A stretch of 27,555 nucleotides of DNA. It comes from a virus. The stretch is from the IMG/VR virus record IMGVR_UViG_3300042889_001436, positions 1-27,555 of that record; one strand, 5' to 3'. Positions 9,295 through 27,140 of this stretch are shown in pieces. The first letter of the stretch is position 1; every line of letters starts with the position of its first letter. Made by a program: the position numbers and the translations under genes. The notes beneath the pieces are model-generated. The model had not been told where the DNA came from, searched no databases, and was given only the letters and a program-made list of their open reading frames with translations.

Positions 9295-10074
9295 CTAATT
9301 CCAATATGTGCAGATTGACTTTTTGAAAATACACCAGTCGCATAATTTTGTTGGGATAGTTTCCCATTCATTGTTTCCATATGATTTTTCTATTTCCTCA
9401 CGTACTTGTACAACGGTATCTACCGCTGCTTGGATTTCTGATGGCTTTGGGGTGTTGGTTAAACGAACTCCATCTTTTAGATACAGGAGTTCGAGCTCGT
9501 ATCCGTCAAAGTTGTAATCACGAGCTAATGCAGCAGCATAAAGTGTCAGCTGAAAAAATTTACCAGCAGAAAACCGTGGATTTGGCGTTTTCCCAGTTTT
9601 GTAATCTGTAATTTTTGCAATGCCGTCTTCTTCATTCCATCTGTCAATAAAGCCCTTAATACGAACCCCTTCAAGGTCTGTATTGAGTTCGTGCTCTACG
9701 CCAGACGGAGTGATTGTTGTTGGGTCTTCAAGCTGAAAAAGGTTTTCTACACACCACCAGGACATCCATCGGAATTCATTTAGGCTTAGCGTGCCGAGGT
9801 ATGGTTTTACTTTTTCTTCCCATTCTCCGGAAACCCAAAGCTCACGACATATTTCTTTTGCAAGGGTCAACTTGCGTTCTTCAAGAGGAAACTCTTTGTA
9901 CATCGTTTCAAGAACTTCATGGACAAAGTTACCCATAAGGGTTTGCATTGTAGGAGGTTCTGATATTTTGTCAATACGTGAAAACTTAAATTTCAATGGG
10001 CATTGCTGAAATGTTGAAATTGACGACGCGGATAGATACTCAGGAAGGGGTCCTTGCTCATTCAGAGTCGACAA
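9295..10074 (-). CDS. Cas4/RecB-like PD-(D/E)XK exonuclease with Fe-S cluster cysteines
   Basis: 259 residues. 'LSASSISTFQQCPLKFKF' (14-31) is the classic opening of the family, carrying Cys25. 'GNFVHEVLE' has His52. 'GFIDRW' (Asp144) and 'ITDYKTGK' (Asp157, Lys159) form the nuclease centre, and 'QLTLYAAAL' (Gln175, Tyr179) is motif IV. The C-terminus has C245-x2-C248 and C255, which with Cys25 would hold a 4Fe-4S cluster as in Cas4 and AddB. It starts at a TTG (10074), supported by a GGGAG six bases ahead and the need to include the first motif. Overlapping the Rad52-like gene by 17 bases, it likely resects DNA ends for that annealing protein. No Cas1/Cas2 or CRISPR is present. Confidence 0.9.
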   Translation of the reverse strand: MSTLNEQGPLPEYLSASSISTFQQCPLKFKFSRIDKISEPPTMQTLMGNFVHEVLETMYKEFPLEERKLTLAKEICRELWVSGEWEEKVKPYLGTLSLNEFRWMSWWCVENLFQLEDPTTITPSGVEHELNTDLEGVRIKGFIDRWNEEDGIAKITDYKTGKTPNPRFSAGKFFQLTLYAAALARDYNFDGYELELLYLKDGVRLTNTPKPSEIQAAVDTVVQVREEIEKSYGNNEWETIPTKLCDWCIFKKSICTYWN

Positions 10075-10744
10075 TTGTTGCTCCCAAATAAATAGCTGCA
10101 GCCTGGGTGTGCAAAAACTCTGCCTCTTCCAAGGTTACTGTTGACTTTTTGGGCACCTCTGCGCCGTCACTATATTCAGACCAGTCTTCGCGCAACTGTT
10201 TCTTTTGTTGCTCGTCAAACTTTTTTGTAAACGACATGAACGCATCCCAAATTTCAGCAATTTCTGAGTTTACGGTTTGCGCTACTGGCTGGGGAGTTAC
10301 TGTTTCAGCACTGCTTTCTGCATACATTGCTTCTTCGCTACGCGCAAGATACAGACCAACACCCATTGTCTGTGCTGCTTTTTTAAGAGCGTCAGAAACA
10401 GCACCCTTCATTTCATCGCCAAGGTCAACGATGTCGCCAGCTTTTGTACGCTTAATCTTTTGGCCACCAATGCCGTCACGTGTTACGTAACCAAATGGAG
10501 CTTCTGCGTACCAAGTCATGCGAACGTGGGCAACAATGTAGTCAGGGTCAAGAGCGTCACGACCGCACGAAATAATTTCAAACGACCAGCTATTCACGCC
10601 GATTACTTTGTTGAGGCGGGTAATCACCTCACTGACAGGGATATAGGTGAGCGATGCTCCGCCTTTGCGCAGTTCGCGTTCCATTTCTGGGGGGAACGGC
10701 TCTGAGAGCATGCTGTATGTATTGGTTGAATTATCTTTTTCCAT
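10058..10744 (-). CDS. Rad52-like single-strand annealing protein
   Basis: 228 residues. The N-terminal region has 'FPPEMERELRKGGASLTYIP' (17-36) and 'VITRLNKVIGVNSWSFEI', the Rad52/Sak family opening, and 'GDEMKGAVSDALKKAAQTMG' (109-128) is the family's hallmark helix. The C-terminal third is variable and acidic, and in this family usually mediates partner contacts. It would bind single strands and anneal homologous DNA in phage recombination. Overlap with the downstream Cas4-like exonuclease makes a nuclease/annealase pair comparable to lambda Exo/Beta. It starts with ATG 10744, five bases after the preceding stop. Confidence 0.88.
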   Translation of the reverse strand: MEKDNSTNTYSMLSEPFPPEMERELRKGGASLTYIPVSEVITRLNKVIGVNSWSFEIISCGRDALDPDYIVAHVRMTWYAEAPFGYVTRDGIGGQKIKRTKAGDIVDLGDEMKGAVSDALKKAAQTMGVGLYLARSEEAMYAESSAETVTPQPVAQTVNSEIAEIWDAFMSFTKKFDEQQKKQLREDWSEYSDGAEVPKKSTVTLEEAEFLHTQAAAIYLGATIVDSE

Positions 10745-12844: not shown

Positions 12845-15130
12845 ATGGCTTGGAATGCAGGCACTAACAAGGCGGAAAACGCTGGACAGCAGAAATCAAT
12901 ACTGACGCCGGGCGCGCCTATTGCGTTTAATACCGGCATGGCTGGAAAGCCATACAGAGATTCCTGGGATATTGAGCGGGCCTATAGAGAGGGCATGGCC
13001 AAGGTCACTTGGGTAAACCGCTGTATCGACGCTATTGCTGGAAACCAAGCAAGGCTCCCAGTCATGCTTAGGAAAGATAATTCACCAGACGGTAAAATTA
13101 TCACCAACAATAAAGAAAATAAAATACTTGACATTTTGAATACAAAGTCAAATATGGGAGAAAACTCGTTTGTATTTAGATACAGGCTTTCTTCTCAGCT
13201 CCTTTTGTCTTCTAGAGGGGCTTTTATAGAAAAGATTAGGGGTCGCGATGGTTCCATTGTTGCCCTTCAGCTTCTGCCGCCACAGCACACAGCGCCAATT
13301 CCAGACCCAAAAAGGTTTGTTTCTGGGTTTGAAGTCGACATGCGGAATGGAACTAAAGTCTATTTAAAACCAGAAGATGTTATCTGGATTAGAAAACCAC
13401 ACCCGCTAGACCCTTACCTATCTCTGACGCCTTTAGAGTCTGCTGGAGTAGCCATTGAAATTGAAAACCTTTCAAAGCTCTATAACCGAAACTTTCTTTT
13501 AAATGACGGCAGGCCGGGCGGCATGATTGTCGTTAGGGGGGAAATCGACGACGACGACAAAGAGGAACTTAGGTCTAGGTTTAGAGGCAACATAAACAGG
13601 GCTGGTTCCATAACTGTTGTTTCTTCTGATGAGGGCGTTGATTACGTTGATACCGGCGCAAGCCCAAGAGACGCAAACTACATCCAAATGCGTCAAATAA
13701 CCAAGGAAGAAATACTTGCTTCTTTTGGTGTTCCAGAATCGGTCATAGGAAACGCTTCCGGCCGTACTTTTTCCAACGCCGGCGAAGAGCATAGAGTCTT
13801 CTGGAATGAAACTTTGCTCCCTCATTTGGAGCTAATCGCCAGAGGACTTGACGAACTTGACGATGAGCACTACATAGACTTTGATACCTCGGACGTCCCA
13901 ATCCTTATTCTTTATAAGCAGGAGCGAGAAAGATACCTCCTTGATGAATTCCAAAACGGACTCATCAGTGGTAACGAATACCGCGCCCAAACAGGCAGGA
14001 ATAAAATTGACTCCGACCTAATGCAAGCAATGCTTGCCAACCCGAACCTCACCCCAATTGGCTATACGGACAAGAAGTTTGACTCCCAGGAGCAAGCAGC
14101 TCAGATGGCGGCACAGCAGGGTGGTGGAATGCCTGGTGGAATGCCTGGTGTTGCTGCTGCAGGAATGATGCCGGCCCCAGGGCCAGAACAACAAGCAGAA
14201 ATGCCTGCCCAGATACTCAGCCTGCAAGAGCCAGGTGCCGCCGGTGCCCCTCCAGGAGGCATGACAGAGGCTTTAGCGGCAGAACAGGCAGCATCAGCCA
14301 ATATGGCTATGCAGCCGTCTCCAAGCGCGCTCTCAGCGTTCAATCCCAGCCAAATGATGTCTAAGTCTCTGTCTCAGGACGCTGAAGGATACGAATGGGA
14401 CATAAAGGCTGACGAAAGTACTGATAGCTGGACAGAAATTCTGGACAGAAATCTAGAAAGATTCATAGAACGCCAGCAGCGTGTAGTTATGGAAAAAGCT
14501 GGCGGTGCCAAGGCTAGGAAATCAATAGAAACGGGTTCTCTTGATGTAGAGAGCATCTTCGACATATCTGTCTGGAACAAGCAAATTGAAGAAGATTTGC
14601 GTCCTGTTTTTTCTGGGATACTGAAAGACGCATCGCAATTAGTGAACGAGCAGACTTCCATGCCAATAGAAATGGACGAAGAGGAAGTAAAACAGTACCT
14701 CGACGCTCAGGTTGAAAGAGTTATAAAAACAAACTCAACAACAAAAGAGGAAGTTGCATCTGCAATATTGATTGCTACAGCTTTGTCAAACGACGAAGAC
14801 AGGGTTGGCATGCTTAAGGCGGCATTGGCGGCTATTTTTATTAACCTGCTTTCCAAGCGCAAGCGCTCAATTGCGGAACACGAAGGTCAGACTGCATATA
14901 ACGCAGGTTTGTACTTTGGAGCAAAACAAGCCGGAGCTGCCAGTAAAACATGGGTTACACGAAAAGATTCAAACGTACGCGGCGAGCATAAGCTCCTAGA
15001 GAGCAAGACAGTCAGTCTGACAGACGGCTTTTCCGTTGGTGAAAGTTTCTTACGTTTTCCAGGAGACCCAGAAGCACCACCACATCTCACAATGAACTGC
15101 AGATGCAAGCTTCGTTTTAGGATTGAATAA
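12845..15130 (+). CDS. Portal protein fused to MuF-like head morphogenesis domain
   Basis: 761 residues. Residues 1-390 are a HK97-type portal: 'WVNRCIDAIAGNQARLPVML', 'LQLLPPQHTAPIPD', 'LKPEDVIWIRKPHPLDPYLS', 'NFLLNDGRPGGMIVV' and 'EILASFGVPESVIGNASGRT'. A Gly/Met/Pro/Ala-rich linker (about 420-510, GGGMPGGMPGVAAAGMM) leads to a helical C-terminal region ending in a MuF-type signature, 'SKTWVTRKDSNVRGEHKLL' then 'FPGDPEAPPHLTMNCRCKLR' (about 700-758). Portal forms the dodecameric DNA gate, while MuF proteins sit in the head and in other phages are separate. The ATG has only a weak ribosome site, so coupling to the membrane gene upstream is likely. Confidence 0.9.
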   Translation: MAWNAGTNKAENAGQQKSILTPGAPIAFNTGMAGKPYRDSWDIERAYREGMAKVTWVNRCIDAIAGNQARLPVMLRKDNSPDGKIITNNKENKILDILNTKSNMGENSFVFRYRLSSQLLLSSRGAFIEKIRGRDGSIVALQLLPPQHTAPIPDPKRFVSGFEVDMRNGTKVYLKPEDVIWIRKPHPLDPYLSLTPLESAGVAIEIENLSKLYNRNFLLNDGRPGGMIVVRGEIDDDDKEELRSRFRGNINRAGSITVVSSDEGVDYVDTGASPRDANYIQMRQITKEEILASFGVPESVIGNASGRTFSNAGEEHRVFWNETLLPHLELIARGLDELDDEHYIDFDTSDVPILILYKQERERYLLDEFQNGLISGNEYRAQTGRNKIDSDLMQAMLANPNLTPIGYTDKKFDSQEQAAQMAAQQGGGMPGGMPGVAAAGMMPAPGPEQQAEMPAQILSLQEPGAAGAPPGGMTEALAAEQAASANMAMQPSPSALSAFNPSQMMSKSLSQDAEGYEWDIKADESTDSWTEILDRNLERFIERQQRVVMEKAGGAKARKSIETGSLDVESIFDISVWNKQIEEDLRPVFSGILKDASQLVNEQTSMPIEMDEEEVKQYLDAQVERVIKTNSTTKEEVASAILIATALSNDEDRVGMLKAALAAIFINLLSKRKRSIAEHEGQTAYNAGLYFGAKQAGAASKTWVTRKDSNVRGEHKLLESKTVSLTDGFSVGESFLRFPGDPEAPPHLTMNCRCKLRFRIE

Positions 15131-15224: not shown

Positions 15225-17516
15225 GTGTCTAGCAACGTCTCCGACTTTACTGTAACTCAATACAAGGCAAACCCAGGCCAAGTAAACGTCAACGAAGCAC
15301 AGGGCATTGTTGAGTGTTTTGTTGCTGCGTTGGGCAACAAAGACAGCGTTGGTGATATTTGTTTACCAGGTTGCTTTAATTCCTCTCTAAAAAGAAGAAA
15401 ACCTCGTGTTGTATGGGGACATAACTGGAACGAACCAATCGGCAAAGTTTTAGAGATTTATGAGGTTGGGCCAAATGACCCAAGGCTTCCAGCAAAAATG
15501 AGGGCCAAAAATGTTGGCGGTCTATTTGCAAAAGTACAGTTTAACCTTATGTCGGAAAAAGGAAGAGAAGCTTTTAGTAATGTCGCTTTCTTTGGGGAAG
15601 AACAAGAATGGTCAATCGGCTACAAGACCCTCGACGCAGTTTTTGACACAACACAACAGGCCAACCTCCTTAAAGAGGTTGAACTTTACGAAGTGTCCCC
15701 AGTTCTGCATGGAGCAAATCAACTAACTGCAACTCTCTCGATTAAAGCCGATGATGCGGAGTCTGACGGAGGAATGCACCAAAAGTTTCACGCGGGCACC
15801 CTGTATGCGCCAACGGAAACAGCACAAAACCCTGTCACTGGAAGAATGGGGGCTTTGGCTCGTCATATAAATATGCACTTCGGCGGAGAAGTGGTAATCA
15901 GAAGCGCCGAAGAAAACATAGTCATCTTTGACCTAACAAGAGACGGAACGACAGAAACCCTCCGCTCTAGCTATCACTCCCCCAACGGTGTCGATTTTAT
16001 GTTTGGCTCTGCTCAGGCTGTTCGTGCAGAAGTCGTATATATGCCCGTTAATGGTTCTGCCGGAACCCGAGTTGCCGGCAGTGAGGATGAAGGACATGGC
16101 GGATGTGGTTGTGGCGGAGCTTGCGGAGGAGCAAAATCTGACTGTGGTTGCGGTGGAGAATGTGGCGGCTGTGGTGTTAAAGACGCATTTCCGTCATGGG
16201 ATGACTTTAAATCAGGCAATCCAGGAACTCATCTATTTGTAAAAACAGCGGATGCAAACCTATACGAAGCGGCATTAACCGTTGCTGAGTACCATGGTTT
16301 TGGGGTTGAACTATTGAGCGACGGATTTGCCGTACCAAATATTGACTGGTATGGCTCTGATGCTTCCAATGCGCTAATAGTTGCATGTGACTCAATTAGC
16401 GAAAAAGCAGCAAGGCCAGGTCGTGTTGCTCGTGGTGCTGCCGTCACACCCAGGCGGGGAGTATCGCTAAAGCCAGCAAGCTATGACGGCGACAATGATG
16501 GATTTAGGACCGGCCCTACAGGGTTGGACAATATTCCTTACGTTGCCAACCCATTCGGCGGAACATCTCTTGAGCCAAGGATGATGCCTACTAGAGAAGA
16601 GCCTAAAGAAGTTCCTCGTGAAATACCTCAACAAGAACCAATCAGGCAGCCAAAACGCACTCCTCGCAAGAACCCACAAGAAATACCTCAGAAGGAGCCG
16701 GTCAAAGAGCCAGTAAAAGAACCGGTAAAAGAGCCTGTCAAGGAACCACAAAGAGAACCACAGAAACCCCCTACGAAGGTTCCAGAAAAGGAACCACAAA
16801 GAGAGCCGGCGCGTCCTACTCCTGCTCCTACTCCGGTACCAAGTGAGCCAACCAGAACACCAACGCCGAATGTTCCAGACCCTCCTGGACGTAAGCCAAA
16901 AGAAAAACCTAAACGAAGAGAACAGCCTCAGCCAATTCTTCCCGGAAGAACAAAACCAGGCGTTGAGCCAGGTAAAAAACCAGACCCAAGAAAAAAGCCA
17001 GGACCTCGCATTCCAATTGAGCCAAGGCCTGCGCCTGCTCCAAGGCCGCCAGTAGAGCCGCCAAAGAAGCCAAAGAAAGAACCAAAGCCAGGAAGAAAAC
17101 GTCCTGTTCCGTTTGTTCCTGACCCAACAAAGCCAATTAAGCCAGACGTTCCGTCTCCAACTCCGGACCGTCCGCGCGTTCCTGAAAGACCGCGACGCAT
17201 ACCGGTACCAGCACGTTATACCCCCTCGGTTAGAGGGGCATGGAAGTCGGATGTAGCTGAAGTGTTTATATCTATATCTGATGATAAAGATATGCAGGTT
17301 AAGTCTGGTCTTCAATTTGACACTCGAGATATTGATTCTGTTGTTATCGAAGTATCCGTAAATGAGATGTTTGAATTAAAATCACTCATAGACCCAGTGC
17401 TTGAATACCACGGAGTCGACGCCAAAGCAACAGAATATGGAATACAAATTTTTAGGTATTCACAATTAACAGATGAGGCAATCTCGGCACTGTCAAGTGT
17501 AATTGAAAATTTCTAG
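15225..17516 (+). CDS. HK97-type prohead protease with very long Cys-rich and Pro-rich C-terminal extension
   Basis: 763 residues, several times the usual 150-250. It starts at GTG 15225 with GAAAGG seven bases ahead. Residues 8-172 are the protease: 'VVWGHNW' (His66), 'EQEWSIGY' (Ser130) and 'VELYEVSPVLHGAN' (about 152-165) are its His, Ser and third-residue motifs. Then follow a beta-rich domain (about 180-285), a Cys/Gly cluster with seven Cys between 294 and 316, an alpha/beta unit (about 320-395) and a D-G-D-N-D-G calcium-loop-like site (421-426). About 210 residues of Pro/Glu/Lys/Arg repeats come next, and a final alpha/beta unit (about 680-763) seems to repeat the one at 320-395 (both contain E-Y-H-G). 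The protease matures the prohead; the tail could be scaffold- or DNA-interacting. Confidence 0.88.
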   Translation: MSSNVSDFTVTQYKANPGQVNVNEAQGIVECFVAALGNKDSVGDICLPGCFNSSLKRRKPRVVWGHNWNEPIGKVLEIYEVGPNDPRLPAKMRAKNVGGLFAKVQFNLMSEKGREAFSNVAFFGEEQEWSIGYKTLDAVFDTTQQANLLKEVELYEVSPVLHGANQLTATLSIKADDAESDGGMHQKFHAGTLYAPTETAQNPVTGRMGALARHINMHFGGEVVIRSAEENIVIFDLTRDGTTETLRSSYHSPNGVDFMFGSAQAVRAEVVYMPVNGSAGTRVAGSEDEGHGGCGCGGACGGAKSDCGCGGECGGCGVKDAFPSWDDFKSGNPGTHLFVKTADANLYEAALTVAEYHGFGVELLSDGFAVPNIDWYGSDASNALIVACDSISEKAARPGRVARGAAVTPRRGVSLKPASYDGDNDGFRTGPTGLDNIPYVANPFGGTSLEPRMMPTREEPKEVPREIPQQEPIRQPKRTPRKNPQEIPQKEPVKEPVKEPVKEPVKEPQREPQKPPTKVPEKEPQREPARPTPAPTPVPSEPTRTPTPNVPDPPGRKPKEKPKRREQPQPILPGRTKPGVEPGKKPDPRKKPGPRIPIEPRPAPAPRPPVEPPKKPKKEPKPGRKRPVPFVPDPTKPIKPDVPSPTPDRPRVPERPRRIPVPARYTPSVRGAWKSDVAEVFISISDDKDMQVKSGLQFDTRDIDSVVIEVSVNEMFELKSLIDPVLEYHGVDAKATEYGIQIFRYSQLTDEAISALSSVIENF
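16692..16739 (+). repeat. Four 12-bp tandem repeats encoding K-E-P-V
   Basis: Four successive codon quartets of the type AAG GAG CCG GTC lie in frame and encode K-E-P-V four times, with a fifth degenerate unit (K-E-P-Q). The codons differ at third positions, so the protein sequence, not the DNA, is kept. This is the most regular part of the Pro-rich region that spans about 16575-17215. Confidence 0.85.
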
Positions 17517-17523
17517 GAAGTAA

Positions 17524-17736
17524 ATGAGTTCATCAAGATTTTCAAGACCGAAACGACCCAATAACGTCAGCCAGACCAAGCCTGTTATGGGTTATGCTAA
17601 ACCTACAGGACAACCTCAAAAATCATATAAGTATCACTGCATGGTGACTGGAGAAAAACGAATTTCTCCATGCGGCGGATGCTCTAACCCCAAGGGTTGT
17701 TTATCCAACTCTATGCAGTACAAGGAGACAGAATAA
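17524..17736 (+). CDS. Small Cys-rich putative metal-binding protein
   Basis: 70 residues; ATG 17524 follows an AGGAAG and lies seven bases after the protease stop. The N-terminus is basic and Pro-rich (MSSSRFSRPKRPNNVSQTKP). The second half has Cys39, Cys50, Cys53 and Cys59 in 'YHCMVTGEKRISPCGGCSNP', a zinc-finger-like spacing (C-x10-C-x2-C-x5-C). It overlaps the next gene by one base (TAATG). I do not recognise the family. Being in the head module, it may be a minor head protein or help assembly. Confidence 0.7.
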   Translation: MSSSRFSRPKRPNNVSQTKPVMGYAKPTGQPQKSYKYHCMVTGEKRISPCGGCSNPKGCLSNSMQYKETE

Positions 17737-19193
17737 TGGCTGAATCACCAGTTGTAAAACTAAACGCAGACGGCGAGGTCGTTGCGTGTGCCAAAGGCCT
17801 TGACGGCGGCGAGTGCGGATACACACCAGGAGCAAAAGTTTGCGGTAAATGCGGTGCTGTTGCATCACAAATGAAGGGCGCTATGCCTGGTGTTGCGGGA
17901 AGCATGGGAATGGGTGGCGGAGTACAATTGCCACCGCGCATGGTGACACGCAAGCCGGGAACCCCTCTTAACGCCGCTAGTCCTTCTATGTTGGACGAAG
18001 AAGACGACGAAGACATGATGGATGATGAAGACATGATGGATGATGAAGAAGACGACATGGGCGAAGAAGACGACGACATGATGGATTCTGAAGAAGACAA
18101 AATGTACGACGAAGACGAAGATGATGACATGTTTGTTCGTCGCGCTGCTCCTAAAAAGAAGCGTAGCGTTGTCGCCATGGAAGACGCAGAAATGGAAATG
18201 GAAGACGAGGACGAAGACGAAGACTACGCAACCGCTGGAATGGTTCGCGCAAAAATGAAGCGCAAGCGTATGGCTACGCTCGGCTTTAAGTCTTCCGAAT
18301 TTGACAAAGATGCATACATCTGTTCTTTTGACAGAAAGGTATACCCTGGCGGTACATCTGTTTGCGATAGCTGCCCAGGTGGTTGCGTTTCCGAAAAGGG
18401 AATGCCTTCACTGATTGAGGTTGAAGGAATTGCGGAAGACATGTTCAGAGGAAAAGTTCTTGACTCTGGATACAGCGATGAAGCAGACCTTTTTGTTGTT
18501 GACGTTGAGCGCAAGGATGGAAAGCCTGTTGAAATCTTCTTTGATGGTTCAAGCGGTGAAGTCATGGGCTGGCACCTTCTTAACAATGAAGTGATGCAAG
18601 TCAAGTCGGCACTTGAAAACAAGGTAATGATTAGCTTCGGCGAAGCGGCAGATATTGCTGTAAAGACCGTAGAGGGCGACATTGTTGCTGTCGAGCCAGA
18701 CGTTTTTGAAGGCTTTGATGTTTACGCAGTAGAAATCGAAGGCATGAACGGAAAGTCTTATGACGTTTTTGTTGCCCTTGATGGCGAGGTTCTCGGATAT
18801 GACGAGTACACGCAGGAAGAGGCTTCTGAAATTGAATCCGAAGCTGCTGAAATTGCACTTAAGCGTGCTTATAACGGAGACACTCGCGACAACATGGCAA
18901 AGAAAGGAACAGCCCTTTCAGATGGCTCTTTCCCAATTGCTGATGATTCGGACCTTCGCAATGCAATTCAAGCATACGGCAGAGCAAAAGACAAACCAGC
19001 AGCAAAAGCACACATCATGAAGCGCGCAATTGCTCTTGGCAAGGAAGACTTGATTCCAGTCAGCTGGGTTTCCAAGGCAGACATCGACAAAGCAAAGGCT
19101 GGAGAAAAGTCAGCAGAGGGCAACTTCTTGTCAACGCTGTTGGAATTTGAAATGCTTGCAGCAGAAGACAACACTGAAGAAAGCGGTAATTAA
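17736..19193 (+). CDS. Acidic head-module protein with Cys clusters, PepSY-like repeats and a conserved C-terminal phage domain
   Basis: 485 residues from ATG 17736, with GGAG nine bases upstream; a TTG further up is less likely. In order: a zinc-ribbon-like N-terminus (C18, C27, C36, C39); a Met/Pro/Gly linker; an extreme Asp/Glu/Met stretch (86-132) followed by a basic patch (KKKR); a second acidic and basic pair (148-179); a second Cys cluster (C196, C210, C213, C217). Two PepSY-like units follow (about 222-282 and 297-356, for example 'ISFGEAADIAVKTVEGDIVA' and 'DVFVALDGEVLGYDEY'). The C-terminus (388-444, 'GTALSDGSFPIADDSDLRNA', 'HIMKRAIALGKEDLIP') is a module I have seen in actinophage head proteins. 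A scaffold or protease-regulator role is possible, as PepSY domains often inhibit proteases, but unproven. Confidence 0.75.
   Translation: MAESPVVKLNADGEVVACAKGLDGGECGYTPGAKVCGKCGAVASQMKGAMPGVAGSMGMGGGVQLPPRMVTRKPGTPLNAASPSMLDEEDDEDMMDDEDMMDDEEDDMGEEDDDMMDSEEDKMYDEDEDDDMFVRRAAPKKKRSVVAMEDAEMEMEDEDEDEDYATAGMVRAKMKRKRMATLGFKSSEFDKDAYICSFDRKVYPGGTSVCDSCPGGCVSEKGMPSLIEVEGIAEDMFRGKVLDSGYSDEADLFVVDVERKDGKPVEIFFDGSSGEVMGWHLLNNEVMQVKSALENKVMISFGEAADIAVKTVEGDIVAVEPDVFEGFDVYAVEIEGMNGKSYDVFVALDGEVLGYDEYTQEEASEIESEAAEIALKRAYNGDTRDNMAKKGTALSDGSFPIADDSDLRNAIQAYGRAKDKPAAKAHIMKRAIALGKEDLIPVSWVSKADIDKAKAGEKSAEGNFLSTLLEFEMLAAEDNTEESGN
18009..18044 (+). repeat. Two 18-bp tandem repeats in the acidic segment
   Basis: The 18-base unit beginning GAAGACATGATGGATGAT occurs twice in direct succession and encodes E-D-M-M-D-D twice. 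Related but degenerate copies continue to about 18080. Likely made by replication slippage and tolerated in a disordered acidic region. Confidence 0.9.
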
Positions 19194-19451: not shown

Positions 19452-22400
19452 GTGAGCAATGATAATAGTTTTGCCGACAAGGCTATAAATAAATTTGCAT
19501 CTAACAAAGATGCTTCACTATCTATTTCTTTTCCTTCTATAAAAGCAGACGATTCCAAATCTAAAGAAGAGCCTGCTGACAAAAAAACAACAGCGGAAAA
19601 AGAATCTAAAGCCGAGTCTGCATATGAAGACTATTTGGAAAACTGGCAACAGGGCGACCGCATACCTCTTATCCCTCCTGGGAAAGAATTTATTCTTTGC
19701 AGGGTAAACCTAAATCCTTTAAGCGCTGAAAAAGAAGCCGGGTATTATGACACGCCTGAGCTAACAAAAAAACCATACAAAAAATCTTCTCCAGAAGAGC
19801 AGCTAATTGAATTCAAGAATCTTGGACCAAAGCTAAGCGAAAGCCTGACTTCTATCCTTGGGCGAGTTGCTAAATCACGTGGACTATGGATTGACGACAA
19901 AAATAAACTGCGTTGCCCTCCTGGTTCACCTGCAGCAAACCAGTTCACTGACATAACTGGTAGTAACTGCTTTATACCGTCTCCTCAAACCGCTGCCGGC
20001 TCTGCTCGCAGAGCGGTTAGAAGAGCAGTAAATGGAGCCGATGTGCTTTCATCTCCTCTTGGTGGAAGAACTGATACATCATCTGCGGGAACAGCACAAA
20101 GAGTGCAGGCATATACGACAGACGATTTTGCCATGGTCAACGCTGCAATGGGTGTTGGTGGAAGAATCGGAATGCCGGGAAGACTCAAGGGTCCGGTCTG
20201 GAGCAGGGAAGCAGCAGTCCGAGGAGCTAGAGAAGGAAAAGAATCTTGGCAGCTTGGCGCAAGAGAGCAGCGAGAACGCGGAAAAATAGCAACAACCCAA
20301 GCGGATGTTCTTCATAGAAGATTTATGGGCCAAGGCGCTCCTGCTGGGCTTACACGAGCTGCGCGCAGAACAGTCAGGGCGATGGATAGACAAATTGCGT
20401 CTCCGTCTAATTATTTACTTCCAAGCGGAAATCCTGTAGGAGACATTCTCAATAAGGGAAACTTTACGAGAGCCATGCAGGAAATACTTCCAAACGTCGA
20501 CCCCAACGAGATTGAAAAAGCTTTTAATGAGTCAATTCCAGCAGGATTAACGCTAAAAGAAAGAATGGAAGCACAGCTTGCTATGCGCACATTTTTTGAA
20601 GCAATGATTTTTGAGGCAATTCAAAACCCAAAACATTTTAGGTGGGTGACACAATTTAATACAGGGCCAATAAAAGGGGACCCAAGTTGCGCATTTGAGA
20701 TAAAACTTGCTGAATTCGCCCCAAGCCCACTCAGCGGAGGTCGTCGCGCTGGTGTAGCTGTAACAAACCTTGCTCGAGCAGGAAGGGTTGGAGAAACTGG
20801 CGGAATGCATGTAGAAATGAACTTTAATCCCCTCGCTGCCTACCTGTATACAAGAGGTGCGGGCAGAACAAAGTTTTCAGACGGAAGCGGTGAATTTGAT
20901 TCAATAGAGGGGAAAGCGTTGTACCTAGGAGTGCATGAGTCCGGCCATATGGTTGACTTCGGAGAAAAACTTAAAGCACTAGGACTGGACCCAGATACTT
21001 TATCAAGGTTTGGGAAAACGACAACACTCGTCACGACTCCCAGTGGACCAGCAAGACAACCAAATTTTTACTCCAGAGGGTGGGATATTGACTGGTCGAT
21101 GGTAACCAATCCATCCGGAAATGCCAGCGTTCAAGACATGATGGATGCTGCCGCAGCGTTGCAAACAAACAGTTATACAGGTGGGCGCTTTGGTGGACGA
21201 AGAATTGACCTTCAGGACGATTTAAACAAATTTCATTTTGGTTTTGCTGATGCTTTTACGAACAACATTAATACAACAGAAGCAGAACACACACTCATGG
21301 CGCAGTTCGCAGGTGGCGACTATGCACTAGATAGCCCAATCGAAGCAAGAGCTGAATTTTACGTAACAAGACGTCTTTTTGGCGAATCAACCAAGTTTCC
21401 ATCTACTGTTTATCCGCCATACGGGCCGCTAAAAGTTGCAGACCAGAACCTTGTTGAAAAATTTGCAGAGACAGAGGCTATTAGAAGAGCCACTCAAGAA
21501 GTGGAAGATGGATTACTTACAGTTGCAGCAAAACCAGCGCGAACACTAGTACTTCAGGGCGAAGTTTTAAACGAGCTAAGAAATGCAGGGCGAGATACTT
21601 TTGGCATACCGTCAGGAGGCTGGAACGTGTCTGGCCTTATGTCTACCCCCGGAAGAAATGGAAGACTTTCGCTACATGCGCGCAGAGTACAAGACCTTGT
21701 CGCCGCTACAGAAATTCAAACCCAAAGAAGACGTCGTGGAACAAACATCCCATCCGGTGTTTCTGGGAAAATGTCAACGCCAGAAATTAGAAAACCATCT
21801 CGTCCTCGTGAACCAGACAATGGTCCGTATACGGGAAGATTCCTTGAAATATTTAGCGGTGTAAAAGATTTTGCGGATTTTAGAGATAGATACAGAAAAG
21901 AAGACGTTATCTATTTTGACTATGAAACAACAGGTTTTGGCGCTGACGGAAACATGCCGGTTCAGATTGGCGCAGTGCGCATGCGTGGTGGACAGGTTGT
22001 AGAACGGTTCAACGTATTCGTTAACCCTGGAATACCACTTGGTGAATGGGCTCAAAAGAATCTAAAAGACGGAAGCGGAAATCCTCTTACTGACGCTTGG
22101 CTTGCACAGCAAGAATCATTAAAAGGTGCCCACGAGAAGCTAATTGAATTCTTTGGTGAAGACGCCCTAATTGGTGGTCAATACACTCCGTTTGACCTTG
22201 AAGTGTTTGACAGGGTAACAAAAGACCTTGGCATCTCTTATAAGCCAGGCGGTGTTATTGACTCTAAAGCACTGGCTGATGAAACGTTGCCTCGCTGGAC
22301 ACCTGATAAGCCAGATGGCCCAACGATGGTTGACCCTAAGACTGGCGACAAAAAGGGCTCAAATAGCCTGGGGCCGCTAGCTGAATACCTTGGAGTTGAC

Positions 22401-25400
22401 CTTGGCGATGGTTGGCATACCGCTGATGCTGACGCTGAAGCATCCGCGCTCGTAACCGAGAGAATGCTTGATAGAGCAGTTGCTAATCCAGGCACGACTC
22501 CAAAAACAATTCTTGACCCAGAAGAAATGCCAAATATTGTTGAGCGTCGCCGTAAAAAATACGCAGCCGACATGGAGCAATACGAGCGCGACAAGATTGA
22601 CTACGAAGCTGCGGTGAGTGGAAAAATGAGCGTTCCTCAATTTGAGACCGCTAATGGCTCAACATACGAACGCCAGCCAGATGGAAGATATAAGCGCAGA
22701 AAAGACCCTGTTCGCAGTACGACAATGGATGGCCCTGTTGAGAAAATTCAGAAAAAGACATCAGCAGAAGATATTGCAAAAGATGCTGAATCTGCAGAAA
22801 AGCTCAGAACTGAACAAAAGCGTCTAGAGTCAATGTCCGACGGTGAGTTGGATACTTTATTCTCAGACGGCGAATATACCTATGTAGTTCACTTTGGAGC
22901 AGAAGAAATTACTGGCGGAGAAATGGACCCAGCAAGGTCTGTTGGAGCTGGTGACTCTTTTGACGCCGACACTCGCGGAATAAATAAAACCTACTCTGAT
23001 GCATTTATTTCTCAGTACAATGTTGATAAAGCAACTTCGGAGCACGTTTCTAGTGTTGTGGACACATTAAAGAACGAAGGGCAAATTGATAGCCCTCTAA
23101 GCGGAACCGTACCGGGAACAGCAGTCAATCCGTACGATTCGATTTATTCTGGTTACTACATGAAGAAGGGGGCTCGGCGCGACAGATTTTCCCAAGACAG
23201 AGATAGACCATGGCCGGACGCAGATGACCTTACTGAAATGGGAATGACTAGAGAAGAACTTATTGATTCTTTAGAAAAAAACACAGTTCCTGTACTCGAA
23301 GATAGATGGAAACCTAAAACGGAAACTGTCAAAAAGCTTGAATCAAACGACGGTCAATTTACTAGCGCGTTTACGGTTGCTGGGGTTGTTTCAGGAAAGG
23401 ACAATCCAGAAGCATACGGAGGAAGATACTCCGAAGGGTACGATGCCGCAACAGCAGACAGACAAGACAGGATTAACTCTTTTGCTCAAAGCCCCAGAAT
23501 GGGTATCCACATTCTGCGCGTAAAAATGGGAGAAGACGCCACACGCCTAGGTTTTGGAAGCAAAACACAGCGTGAAGTCCACATGCTCGGAAAGCACAAA
23601 GTTGTCGCCTCGATGGCTGCACCAACGTGGGGTAAAAGAGTAGACCTAGAAGGAAGAGATTTTTTCAAAGGCTGGATGGCTGATGTTGTTAAAAAAGACA
23701 AAGCTGCAAAAGCGGCAGAAGCAGCAGGAAAACCAGCAGATGTAGTCGAAACAACATTTGACAATACCGTTTTCTTGACTCCAGATGCTAAATATGCTGT
23801 TCAGCTTGCTGCAGATAGGGGTCGTCATATAGGCAGCAATGGTGAATTGATGGGTCTGTCATACGATGATAGAAACCTAAACACTGCAAATCTCTTAAAG
23901 TTGCGTCGCGATGGAGATACCTTTGACGAAGCTTTTGAAAAAGCTGGCGGAGTTATTTCCCACTATCCAATCAGTAGGTCTGAAATTCGTGAGTCTCCAC
24001 AGGTTGGATTAAACCCGTTTGAGTGGGACAATGACGGAAAAAGAACTCATACGGGAAGTCCTGTTTCTTCCGTTACAAGAAGACCGGGCAATGACGTAGA
24101 CCAGACACCGTCGGCAGGTTCTGGGGTATCCGGAAAAATGACAACTGCACAGGCGGAAAAAAGAAAATCTATTGTTGATGACAAGCTTGAACGGTACAAA
24201 AAAGCAGTTCAAGAGTACGACGAAAAAGGTACAGGAGAATGGAATGGTGCCGAGCACGGAGTCGTGACCGCCCTCCCTGCTGTAAGTGATGCGGCGCTTC
24301 ATCTTGACAGGGTAGACATACCGCCAAAAAACTTAAACCTCCGCGAAATAGCTGCCAAAAATGCCGACGAAAAAGGTCTAACTGGAGCAGATAAAGAAAA
24401 ATTCATAGCCGACGAACTTAAAACTCGTCGCGCCGACATGGCTAGAAAAATTCAGTTTCTTGAGAGAGAACAAAAACTTGCAGAAAAACTTATTGAGTCA
24501 AAACGCGTACGCTCGGAACAGAACGTTCTTGACATAGAAGACATATCCCCAGAAGAGATAGAAAAGCTCAAAGCTGAATCTGCTGAAATACGCAGACTTA
24601 AAGCGTCAGACTCCGCAGAAGACGAGGAGCGTTTTACTGCTTTATTTTCAGACGGAGAAACTAGGTACTTAACTCATGGTGGTGAGTCAGAGCTCAGAGG
24701 AGGAGTATTACAGGGCTCCGCGTCTGTTGGTGCTGAGTCTTCATATTCAGGTGGCCTTGGCGGCGGCAGCGGAGATACACGCGGCTTAAATAACGAGATG
24801 GTTGCAGGAATGAAGGGGAGGGTTTTATCCTGGGAAAAATCTATACCTATCCTAGATAAAGCAATCAAGGAAGCAGAAGACAGCGGAACATTCACATACC
24901 GTGATATCGATGCCGAATATGCATTCAGGGGTGTTGCTGATTTTTATAACAAAATAAGAAAATCTAATTTTGGCACAGTATTTAACATTACAGACGAGAC
25001 CGGTCTTACAAAAGAACAGTGGATTGAGAAGTTAAAGGTTCAAAGAAACGCATTTGCAAAAGACTTAGAAGTTGAAAAAAACATCCTTTCAAGAATAGAA
25101 AAAGATGAATATCAATTTTTGTCGGCAGAATTAGCAGAAAAATTTGCAGATTACGGAATGGGATATTTTGGACGATATTCCCATAGGCAGATACCAGCAG
25201 AAATATCTAAAAACCTAGGTGGTGGAACAGACATAGCCGCAGGCATGGGTCTAGCTGGGAAAGAAATAAAAGACCCCGAAATGGCTCAAAGATGGCTTGA
25301 CTCTTTGCGCGGAACTGTTTGGGTTACAAAAGGTAAAAGAGATACTGAGTGGACCGGCAGGCTTGGCCCTCCATTGCAAGAAGTTCAAATTCTTGGAAAA

Positions 25401-27140
25401 ACAAAACCAATTGTTGGATTTTCTTCAAAAAAGAATGACAAAAACCTTCTTGCCGAAATACTGCCAGCGCTACTTGCAAGAGCAATAAATGACGACAAGA
25501 ACAACGGTGGAACAATAAGACCTCTAGTAGTTGGTGGTCGCATCGATGCAGGTTCTGGCGTATCTGGCAAAATGTCGTCTCTTACTCCAGAACAGATGAC
25601 GGTTCGCAACGAATCAATCAGAAAAGGTATTGAAGAAAACGGTGGAAGCTGGGGGGATTTTGTTCCAGACTCCTACCGTGATTCAATAGCCGAAATAGAC
25701 GCAGCATCGTGGGCTGCCGGTGGTCAATTTAATGTTCAAAAACCACTCACAAAAGAGCAAACACAAAAGGATATTGACTCATTTGTTGGCAGGCAGTATC
25801 AAGAGATACAGGCGCATCTGCGTGGAGAAAAAGGAGACTTCAGGTTTATTAATTATGACCTGGGATTTTTAGAACACCTCCGCCAAATGACGCCGGAACA
25901 GTTTGCACAAGAAGTCCGCGATGCAAATATTTCTTTTCATGCCGGCATCGACCCACGAGTACGGGTTCAAGTTCCGATTCCAGAACTTACATCAGTGCTT
26001 GCCAATGGGTATAAAACAACTCATGAAGTACGCAGCGACCACAGCCCAAAAGCAATTCGTCTGCCTTACGAAGCATCTATCGGCATACACCCTAAAACTC
26101 CAGCAAATTTACGACCAGCGTCAGGATACATAGTTCATCAAGACTGGCTCGAGGCTGAACTGCAGGCAGCGAGCAAAGACATAGAAGCCCAAGGGCTTGA
26201 AAACGCCCATCCAGAGCTATTGGCACGTGGCGAGACGCTAAACATAGTTAAAAAGGGCAGAGGGCCGGTCGATATCTATGGCGGCATTGAAGTTGTACTT
26301 AGACCAGAAGTTGCTGAAAGAACTAGATACCTACACGGCGATTCTTTGAACACAAAAGGCTCACCAACGCCAATGACGGGAACAGATATAACATCAATTC
26401 AAAAAGGTCTAATGATTAACTATGAGGCTGGAAACTCTTTAACAGAATTACTGTATGGGCACTGGAGTAAAAACCATGGAGCTTCCCACCGCCACATGAT
26501 TAGGGATGCGGAAAGCATGCCTAAAGGTGCCTACTACTCGGGTCCTGAAACTTGGAAAAATGAAACTTACATGGAAGCCCTTATAGCCGGCTCTTTTGAC
26601 TCCGGAGACATTGACGAAATAGTCATGAGCGGGCTCGATAGCGTTCCTTTTAACTGGGTTTTTGATAGCGAAGCTAAGCCACGAGGCATGAGAACACAGC
26701 AGACCTATGGTGCAACCCCTGCAACCGGAAGAGTGTACCCTCCAGCAATATCTCATTTGCGAGATGAAAAACAGCTAATTGAGAAACTAGGATTCACTCC
26801 AGAAGAAGCAAAAATAGGCGCACGAATAGCAACAGATAAATTTTTTGCAGAAGATGGCCAACCTAGCTGGATAAGAAGAGAAGTTCATTTGTTTGCGGCT
26901 ATAGAAATGAAGGAAGCGCTGGAAAAAAAGGGTATCAAGTTTACTCTTAAACACGAAAAAGGTCTTGACGTTTTTGACCCAAAAATAGTTTACCCTGATG
27001 CTCCGGATGGTTCTACAATAAAAGAAGCCCTAGTCATGGCTGTTGAAGAACATCTGAAGAGCGTGGTTCGTGAAGAAATAGCAGAAGCTGGCAGAAAAGC
27101 CCAAGAACAAGCGTCATCACCAGAAAAGGTAGCTGTGTAA
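19452..27140 (+). CDS. Giant multidomain virion-associated protein: metallopeptidase-like, DEDDh exonuclease and three ADP-ribosyltransferase-like cassettes
   Basis: 2562 residues; starts at GTG 19452 with GGGAG six bases ahead. Segment 1 (1-774): a charged disordered start, 'KLRCPPGSPAANQFTD', then a gluzincin-like peptidase with 'LGVHESGHMVDF' (HESGH, 495-499) and a likely third ligand in 'SPIEARAEFYV' (Glu631 or Glu635). Segment 2 (775-1059): a DnaQ-like exonuclease with 'YFDYETTGFG' (Asp823, Glu825), 'GGQYTPFDLEVF' (Asp915) and 'HTADADAE' (His989, Asp994), a complete DEDDh set. Segments 3-5 (1060-1563, 1564-2041, 2042-2562) each hold an ADP-ribosyltransferase-like unit. Cassettes are bounded by V-S-G-K-M-[S/T] with Met at 774, 1059, 1563 and 2041; a variant (V-S-G-L-M-S) has Met730. 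Probably an internal head protein injected with DNA, possibly cut by the prohead protease. Exonuclease: strong; peptidase: good; transferase units: moderate. Confidence 0.85.
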   Translation: MSNDNSFADKAINKFASNKDASLSISFPSIKADDSKSKEEPADKKTTAEKESKAESAYEDYLENWQQGDRIPLIPPGKEFILCRVNLNPLSAEKEAGYYDTPELTKKPYKKSSPEEQLIEFKNLGPKLSESLTSILGRVAKSRGLWIDDKNKLRCPPGSPAANQFTDITGSNCFIPSPQTAAGSARRAVRRAVNGADVLSSPLGGRTDTSSAGTAQRVQAYTTDDFAMVNAAMGVGGRIGMPGRLKGPVWSREAAVRGAREGKESWQLGAREQRERGKIATTQADVLHRRFMGQGAPAGLTRAARRTVRAMDRQIASPSNYLLPSGNPVGDILNKGNFTRAMQEILPNVDPNEIEKAFNESIPAGLTLKERMEAQLAMRTFFEAMIFEAIQNPKHFRWVTQFNTGPIKGDPSCAFEIKLAEFAPSPLSGGRRAGVAVTNLARAGRVGETGGMHVEMNFNPLAAYLYTRGAGRTKFSDGSGEFDSIEGKALYLGVHESGHMVDFGEKLKALGLDPDTLSRFGKTTTLVTTPSGPARQPNFYSRGWDIDWSMVTNPSGNASVQDMMDAAAALQTNSYTGGRFGGRRIDLQDDLNKFHFGFADAFTNNINTTEAEHTLMAQFAGGDYALDSPIEARAEFYVTRRLFGESTKFPSTVYPPYGPLKVADQNLVEKFAETEAIRRATQEVEDGLLTVAAKPARTLVLQGEVLNELRNAGRDTFGIPSGGWNVSGLMSTPGRNGRLSLHARRVQDLVAATEIQTQRRRRGTNIPSGVSGKMSTPEIRKPSRPREPDNGPYTGRFLEIFSGVKDFADFRDRYRKEDVIYFDYETTGFGADGNMPVQIGAVRMRGGQVVERFNVFVNPGIPLGEWAQKNLKDGSGNPLTDAWLAQQESLKGAHEKLIEFFGEDALIGGQYTPFDLEVFDRVTKDLGISYKPGGVIDSKALADETLPRWTPDKPDGPTMVDPKTGDKKGSNSLGPLAEYLGVDLGDGWHTADADAEASALVTERMLDRAVANPGTTPKTILDPEEMPNIVERRRKKYAADMEQYERDKIDYEAAVSGKMSVPQFETANGSTYERQPDGRYKRRKDPVRSTTMDGPVEKIQKKTSAEDIAKDAESAEKLRTEQKRLESMSDGELDTLFSDGEYTYVVHFGAEEITGGEMDPARSVGAGDSFDADTRGINKTYSDAFISQYNVDKATSEHVSSVVDTLKNEGQIDSPLSGTVPGTAVNPYDSIYSGYYMKKGARRDRFSQDRDRPWPDADDLTEMGMTREELIDSLEKNTVPVLEDRWKPKTETVKKLESNDGQFTSAFTVAGVVSGKDNPEAYGGRYSEGYDAATADRQDRINSFAQSPRMGIHILRVKMGEDATRLGFGSKTQREVHMLGKHKVVASMAAPTWGKRVDLEGRDFFKGWMADVVKKDKAAKAAEAAGKPADVVETTFDNTVFLTPDAKYAVQLAADRGRHIGSNGELMGLSYDDRNLNTANLLKLRRDGDTFDEAFEKAGGVISHYPISRSEIRESPQVGLNPFEWDNDGKRTHTGSPVSSVTRRPGNDVDQTPSAGSGVSGKMTTAQAEKRKSIVDDKLERYKKAVQEYDEKGTGEWNGAEHGVVTALPAVSDAALHLDRVDIPPKNLNLREIAAKNADEKGLTGADKEKFIADELKTRRADMARKIQFLEREQKLAEKLIESKRVRSEQNVLDIEDISPEEIEKLKAESAEIRRLKASDSAEDEERFTALFSDGETRYLTHGGESELRGGVLQGSASVGAESSYSGGLGGGSGDTRGLNNEMVAGMKGRVLSWEKSIPILDKAIKEAEDSGTFTYRDIDAEYAFRGVADFYNKIRKSNFGTVFNITDETGLTKEQWIEKLKVQRNAFAKDLEVEKNILSRIEKDEYQFLSAELAEKFADYGMGYFGRYSHRQIPAEISKNLGGGTDIAAGMGLAGKEIKDPEMAQRWLDSLRGTVWVTKGKRDTEWTGRLGPPLQEVQILGKTKPIVGFSSKKNDKNLLAEILPALLARAINDDKNNGGTIRPLVVGGRIDAGSGVSGKMSSLTPEQMTVRNESIRKGIEENGGSWGDFVPDSYRDSIAEIDAASWAAGGQFNVQKPLTKEQTQKDIDSFVGRQYQEIQAHLRGEKGDFRFINYDLGFLEHLRQMTPEQFAQEVRDANISFHAGIDPRVRVQVPIPELTSVLANGYKTTHEVRSDHSPKAIRLPYEASIGIHPKTPANLRPASGYIVHQDWLEAELQAASKDIEAQGLENAHPELLARGETLNIVKKGRGPVDIYGGIEVVLRPEVAERTRYLHGDSLNTKGSPTPMTGTDITSIQKGLMINYEAGNSLTELLYGHWSKNHGASHRHMIRDAESMPKGAYYSGPETWKNETYMEALIAGSFDSGDIDEIVMSGLDSVPFNWVFDSEAKPRGMRTQQTYGATPATGRVYPPAISHLRDEKQLIEKLGFTPEEAKIGARIATDKFFAEDGQPSWIRREVHLFAAIEMKEALEKKGIKFTLKHEKGLDVFDPKIVYPDAPDGSTIKEALVMAVEEHLKSVVREEIAEAGRKAQEQASSPEKVAV
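20931..21359 (+). other. Metallopeptidase-like domain (HESGH) inside the giant protein
   Basis: 'HESGHMVDF' at 495-503 is a HExxH zinc site of the form seen in anthrax lethal factor-type peptidases (HExGHxxD). A downstream 'SPIEARAEFYVTRRLFG' (residues 629-645) supplies Glu631/Glu635 as the probable third ligand. The spacing of about 130 residues is longer than in minimal gluzincins, so structure prediction would settle it. Confidence 0.65.
21918..22433 (+). other. DnaQ-like DEDDh exonuclease domain inside the giant protein
   Basis: Residues about 820-1000 carry all five DEDDh positions: Asp823 and Glu825 (motif I), Asp915 (motif II), His989 and Asp994 (motif III, H-x4-D). Secondary-structure order matches DnaQ-like exonucleases. 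It would degrade DNA or RNA 3' to 5'. It occupies one cassette bounded by V-S-G-K-M motifs. Confidence 0.88.
22857..23620 (+). other. ADP-ribosyltransferase-like unit 1 of 3
   Basis: Begins 'LFSDGEYTYVVHFGAEEITGG' in two overlapping stretches (about residues 1136-1156) with the His-x-Gly resembling ART motif I, then 'SVGAGDSF' and 'DTRGIN', and ends with 'TQREVHMLGKHKVVASM' (Glu1375), a motif III-like strand. Unit 2 shows the same order, which supports a common fold. The ART assignment is by motif shape only. Confidence 0.5.
24642..25430 (+). other. ADP-ribosyltransferase-like unit 2 of 3
   Basis: Begins 'LFSDGETRYLTHGGESELRG' (about residues 1731-1750), followed by 'SVGAESSYSGG' and 'GDTRGLN', and ends with 'QEVQILGKTKPIVGFS' (Glu1977). 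Clear paralogue of unit 1: the openings share L-F-S-D-G-E, H-x-G, the S-V-G-A motif and D-T-R-G. Confidence 0.55.
25935..26680 (+). other. ADP-ribosyltransferase-like unit 3 of 3 (more distant)
   Basis: 'SFHAGIDPRVRVQVPIPELT' (His2163) opens the unit; 'DIYGGIEVVLRPEVAERTRY' and 'YMEALIAGSFDSGDIDEIVM' (Glu2375) follow. The last stretch (E-A-x-I-x-G ... D-I-x-E-I-V) resembles the catalytic strand of ART domains found in other phage MuF and toxin proteins. It is only weakly similar to units 1 and 2. Confidence 0.5.

Follow-up and report, generated by a model that had tools for sequence, protein, structure and literature searches.

A prohead protease with a long modular tail carrying a duplicated alpha/beta unit in the head-gene run of a bacterial virus

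The window analysed here is the whole stretch of 27,555 nucleotides forming positions 1 to 27,555 of IMG/VR record IMGVR_UViG_3300042889_001436, and it belongs to a virus of bacteria. A host assignment via cellular genomes was discarded as unreliable, with matches only to three contigs of marine metagenome-assembled genomes. A run of head genes occupies the plus strand. The portal protein, fused to a MuF-like domain (12845..15130; Pfam Phage_portal 5e-50, Phage_Mu_F 6e-8), lies directly upstream of the prohead protease gene (15225..17516), followed by a small gene (17524-17736), a PepSY-domain gene (17736..19193) and a gene for a giant polyvalent, or multi-domain cargo, protein of 2562 aa (19452..27140). 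A Phage_capsid gene is found downstream of the cargo genes in nine larger relatives. On the minus strand, positions 10058-10744 encode a Rad52-family single-strand annealing protein (Pfam 4e-12), located between the terminase and the tail-sheath-side genes.

The protease frame is intact, with a GTG start at 15225, 763 codons and a stop at 17514-17516, and its product carries a tail of 590 aa C-terminal to the S78 prohead protease domain. This domain (residues 12-175; 15258..15749, plus strand) matches Pfam PF04586 over residues 23-170 (7.1e-11, 42.9 bits against a cut-off of 21) and PHROG 80 (8e-26), and resembles T4 gp21 in the full-length model with a Z of 9.4. Residues H66, S130 and H162 are invariant in 25 aligned relatives, and from family knowledge we take them to be the candidate catalytic residues. 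By profile match and invariant serine and histidines, the protein belongs to peptidase S78, with proteolysis as its putative activity. A scan of IMG/VR with the window protease returned 80 loci, of 217 relatives in all. Many distinct relatives share one order of parts, namely protease, domain B, Cys/Gly cluster, unit 1, acidic D-x-D-x-D-G loop, Pro-rich spacer and unit 2. The original prediction had raised the case of protease and tail being separate genes joined by an assembly error. Such an assembly or annotation artefact is ruled out with near certainty, because the fusion recurs in many independent virus contigs from different samples, among them L003, L004, L009, L054 and L060.

The protease domain ends in a conserved junction at Lys174-Ala175 (15744..15749, plus strand), a putative self-cleavage site in which S-I-K is followed by Ser or Ala. 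Lys174 is invariant in all 25 aligned relatives, with Ser, Ala or Thr following in 24 of them; across the 55 distinct relatives with a readable junction, S-I-K is present in every one and Ser, Ala or Thr follows in 54. Isolated S78 phages carry V-K-S, V-K-A or V-K-E at the end of the protease domain, and the capsid proteins of the relatives mostly carry K-S or K-T near the end of the N-terminal coiled region. The HK97 capsid protein is cut between Lys and Ser near the end of its N-terminal coiled region. The linker spanning residues 162-204 has low model confidence and is probably flexible. The invariant lysine junction, the capsid K-S/K-T parallel and the probably flexible linker together make it likely that the protease frees its tail by self-cleavage after Lys174. 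Alternatively, Lys174 may be conserved for folding and not for cutting. The prohead protease gp245 of SPN3US, which removes its own C-terminal propeptide, provides a precedent (PMC10052503).

Several parts precede or separate the two units of the tail. Domain B (residues 203-267; 15831..16025, plus strand) is modelled by AlphaFold as a helix and four strands, with weak cystatin-like and NTF2-like fold similarity (Z up to 6.8 in the full-length model). It starts with P-V-T-G-R-M-G, and the stretch N-P-V-T-G-R-M-G resembles the S-G-x-M peptide described below, although it may belong to the first helix of the domain. The Cys/Gly-rich cluster (residues 289-318; 16089..16178, plus strand) contains seven cysteines at positions 294, 296, 300, 307, 309, 313 and 316, with C294 and C296 nearly invariant among relatives. 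The calcium-loop-like motif D-G-D-N-D-G (residues 421-426; 16485..16502, plus strand), a putative metal-binding site, has a similar counterpart in many, not all, relatives. The spacer (residues 440-675; 16542..17249, plus strand) comprises 236 residues with 30% Pro, 12% Lys, 11% Arg and 10% Glu, a net charge of +27 and predicted disorder, mostly below pLDDT 50. It contains a short run of K-E-P-V units, by which its length may change through repeat slippage. In relatives the distance from unit 1 to unit 2 differs greatly and inserted domains break up this stretch, the spacer position holding SGxM and helix-turn-helix inserts; compared across the family, the spacer is a variable slot where other phages insert whole domains. 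The description from which the analysis started, a normal protease to about residue 172 followed by a long tail with a Cys/Gly metal-site-like cluster, a calcium-loop-like D-G-D-N-D-G and a P/E/K/R region between two units, was borne out in each of these parts. The full-length AlphaFold model has a pTM of 0.27, and the relative placement of its domains is therefore untrustworthy.

Unit 1 (residues 320-396; 16182..16412, plus strand) has the order beta-alpha-beta-beta-alpha, and unit 2 with a preceding strand pair (residues 677-763; 17253..17513, plus strand) closes the protein; both are defined by profiles and AlphaFold. The original prediction held the two to be copies of one domain. A single-pair alignment was only suggestive (p 0.005-0.015), whereas profiles built separately from 18 unit-1 and 20 unit-2 sequences aligned significantly in hhalign, with a probability of 94.8% and an E-value of 4.8e-8 over 52 columns. 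With the unit-2 profile, unit-1 sequences are found at values as low as 1e-5; with the unit-1 profile, real unit-2 sequences reach 17.8 bits, whereas none of 4000 shuffled ones exceeds 9.2 bits. Because the family profiles align significantly, unlike the single pair, the stretches at about 320-396 and 677-763 are, at profile level, truly related as a duplicated unit, and the predicted kinship holds. Two homologous units flank the spacer in 24 distinct relatives. In the tree, all unit 1s separate from all unit 2s with a branch support of 0.992, and the single unit of a sister clade falls on the unit-2 side. Because of this separation, the tree fits one ancient duplication older than the clade, its rooting being uncertain. 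The two units of a given phage are 11-20% identical (17% on average), close to the 16% between phages, giving no sign of recent exchange between units.

The E-Y-H-G-[F/V] sequence that the original prediction placed in both units does occur in the window protein, at E355-G358 and E727-G730, but is not a conserved hallmark, the relatives having DYYR, EYHH, EFYG, HHGF or others at this position. The AlphaFold model of the unit reaches a mean pLDDT of 90.5, with a short leading helix before the beta-alpha-beta-beta-alpha core. A Foldseek search against the PDB gave nothing under E 0.1 (best E 0.11), a sequence-profile search against the PDB gave nothing significant (best E 0.38), and no Pfam family was matched. 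In VIA-align the highest score goes to a designed beta-sheet protein (Z 7.2 over 61 residues), with designed ferredoxin-like folds next; this Z lies below kinship level, and the unit has no clear match in the PDB. Within the loci and ten larger records, units occur in the protease and in the split gene of L076-type phages and nowhere else.

Relatives of the window phage distribute the tail over different genes. The sister clade has only one unit, and its C-terminal module is homologous to the window strand pair and unit 2 (hhalign probability 98.3%), unit 2 being the C-terminal element in both the two-unit and the single-unit clade. In L075, L076 and L078 the protease stops before unit 2, which is encoded by the gene directly downstream, together with a helix of sequence K-S-G-R-V-I-S-N-R-N-M. 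The single-unit clade has the G-R-V-I-S-N-R-N helix ahead of unit 2, and its copy there gives a match to PHROG 3017 'head maturation protease' (5e-4). Microbacterium and Arthrobacter capsid proteases have C-termini that align with this helix. This scaffold-type helix is absent from the window protein; as the alignments read, the window clade lost it or never had it.

The neighbouring PepSY-domain gene, whose start is assumed at the ATG at 17736 within a frame of 498 codons (17697-19193), encodes a Cys-rich N-terminus, an acidic stretch, the PepSY domain and a C-terminal module (frame residues 371-469; 18807..19103, plus strand). BLASTP aligns this module with the last module of the GMA6 protease at 51% identity over 100 aa (1e-23). 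Because of the split unit 2, the shared scaffold helix and this GMA6 module next door, tail pieces switch between fused and free, and on these comparisons the tail is a modular scaffold or core region whose pieces are fused or free.

Whole domains are also inserted into the tails of relatives, DUF6321 (2e-30) following the protease domain and Sigma70_r4 domains (2e-10, 3e-13) following the spacer. In L076 (5998-8952) the tail combines a DUF6321 domain with two helix-turn-helix units of the sigma-70 region-4 type, inserts hinting at ejected transcription factors. In L007 (5914-13596) a single frame, 2770 codons long in the record, encodes at least 2561 aa. It joins protease, unit 1 and Pro-rich spacer to some 2000 residues of additional domains, shows three matches to sigma-70 region 4 and carries eight P/I-S/T-G-S-M copies at junctions.

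The giant protein of the window carries an exonuclease domain at residues 821-1001. A zinc-metalloprotease-like H-E-S-G-H motif lies near residue 495 in its first segment, where Pfam gave no match. Residues of about 1059-1562 and 1563-2040 look alike by eye, sharing L-F-S-D-G-E-x-x-Y, G-A-x-x-S and D-T-R-G in this order, and are likely, to judge from these shared motifs, a second internal duplication. The peptide [I/V]-[S/T]-G-x-M-[G/S/A] recurs between the domains of giant cargo proteins near the protease and behind the spacer in the protease tails of relatives, enriched roughly 15-40 fold over shuffled proteins. The window giant protein contains five copies on the plus strand, V-S-G-L-M at 21627..21641 and V-S-G-K-M at 21759..21773, 22614..22628, 24126..24140 and 25560..25574, with the copies at 21759 and 22614 bracketing the exonuclease domain. 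In the relatives G012 (34833-66608) and G002 the run from protease to capsid spans about 34 kb of mostly multi-domain proteins with 18-19 S-G-x-M motifs each, shuffled proteins averaging below 1. In about 80% of copies Met is followed by Gly, Ser, Ala or Thr, and the x residue is modestly tied to the phage (p 0.024). A degenerate pattern at the DNA level gave the same strand-specific excess, its backward control being near zero. Nearly every copy differs at synonymous sites, which points to selection on the peptide; explanations by repeated DNA or by an internal ribosome start were rejected, the copies being nearly all different DNA with serine codons of both families. The peptide was not found in the capsid proteins of the relatives, which weakens a reading as cleavage site, and it may serve as a candidate cleavage or docking signal.

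The explanation preferred here, with chances that we regard as evenly balanced, is that the protease is translated together with its own scaffold or core region, an unusually long, modular tail from which it releases itself after Lys174. The tail would hold the protease inside the growing prohead through the C-terminal unit 2, and perhaps also through its paralogue, unit 1. The disordered, basic, Pro-rich spacer would give reach and may touch DNA or an acidic neighbouring head protein. Once the shell has closed, self-cleavage behind Lys174, in the flexible linker, would free the tail, which would leave as fragments or remain as an internal head protein; the tails of relatives bearing DUF6321 or sigma-region-4 inserts may be expelled along with the DNA. 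A scaffold role fits because of the position of the tail and its link to the capsid-protease scaffold helix. Against it stand the absence of the scaffold helix from the window clade itself, the units, which match no solved scaffold or capsid-binding fold at a best Foldseek E of 0.11, and the nearest isolated phages (GMA6, Cantare and Chidiebere), whose tails are acidic whereas the window tail has a basic Pro-rich coil. A rather unlikely alternative treats the tail mainly as cargo, a polyvalent-type internal head protein riding on the protease, kept in the head and injected to act on the host, with units and spacer as packing and linker parts. The sigma-70 region 4 and DUF6321 fusions, the L007 polyprotein with its eight junctions and the adjoining genes for giant polyvalent proteins bearing S-G-x-M speak for it, as does the packaging of polyvalent proteins in heads and their injection (PMC5512222). 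No effector domain was recognised in the window protein, however, and polyvalent proteins are counted by at least two effector-type domains, a number that the tail does not reach; unit 2 also stays C-terminal in most relatives, a better fit to a structural role.

The tethered two-headed scaffold of the original prediction, in which both units bind head subunits simultaneously and the spacer sets their distance, now appears improbable. Much of its basis stands: the duplicated unit is real and flanks a net basic, disordered spacer in the 24 relatives, the tail lies in the protease gene of many contigs, and its position and helix link fit a scaffold. Two tethered heads are not family-wide, however, given the single-unit sister clade and the separate unit-2 gene of L075, L076 and L078, by which covalent tethering is dispensable in relatives, and the inter-unit stretch varies widely in length and holds inserted domains. 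It is quite improbable that the units form an intramolecular pair, one two-lobed domain in which the unit-1 sheet is completed by the strands before unit 2 while the spacer loops out. In the full model, structural matches do cover a single ferredoxin-like sheet from residue 335 to about residue 690, but the low pTM, the low pLDDT near residues 680-698 and the relatives with only one unit weigh against such a pair.

The modular cargo system beside the protease is a more interesting lead than the two-headed scaffold. Tentatively, S-G-x-M could be the recognition site through which giant cargo polyproteins are processed by this head protease or loaded into the head. In relatives, the genes lying from protease to capsid devote as much as about 30 kb to multi-domain proteins, one of them fused to the protease; these would then be cut inside the prohead into individual injected domains.

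The locus shares with peptidase family S78 (HK97-type, PF04586) the gene order of portal, protease, cargo where present, and HK97-type major capsid protein. What sets it apart is the length of the tail, 590 aa, and the presence there of a Pro-rich spacer and a pair of paralogous alpha/beta units, other members having no tail or a shorter acidic or helical one. The best isolated-phage relatives of the protease domain, from GMA6 and Chidiebere (Gordonia) and Cantare (Brevibacterium), show 39-43% identity and end in V-K-S/E, but their acidic tails lack the units, and the last GMA6 tail module is found in the neighbouring window gene. Protease-scaffold fusions are known from lambda gpC/Nu3 and herpesvirus UL26. 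These resemble the window protein in having the protease first, a putative release site, a flexible linker and a C-terminal part expected to bind the shell, whereas no sequence relation to them was found for the window tail, whose partner and cleavage are putative. The giant-phage protease SPN3US gp245 removes its own C-terminal propeptide, as the window protease is predicted to do with its tail, and many internal head proteins of SPN3US are cut by the prohead protease (PMC10052503, PMC5694885); its protease and cleavage motif are different, and no duplicated tail unit is known there. Polyvalent proteins (PMC5512222) and P1 DarA, an inner-shell lining protein cleaved by the P1 prohead protease (PMC12810830), are likewise multi-domain proteins of the head region, but the window-type domains sit on or beside the protease, separated by the repeated S-G-x-M peptide. 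A literature search found no report of a protease with such a tail, of a phage polyprotein or of a Lys cleavage residue in HK97. A protease with a scaffold or core tail is a known kind of protein.

The tail of a capsid protease can, on this evidence, be rebuilt freely, with a duplicated fold, a disordered spacer, DNA-binding inserts and pieces either fused or encoded next door. These fused and free pieces amount to natural experiments on the loading of internal head proteins by phages. The S-G-x-M peptide is conserved at the protein level and not at the DNA level, and it can be tested directly as a candidate signal for processing or loading common to giant head-cargo proteins. If it is indeed cut, such cargo would be the phage version of a viral polyprotein.
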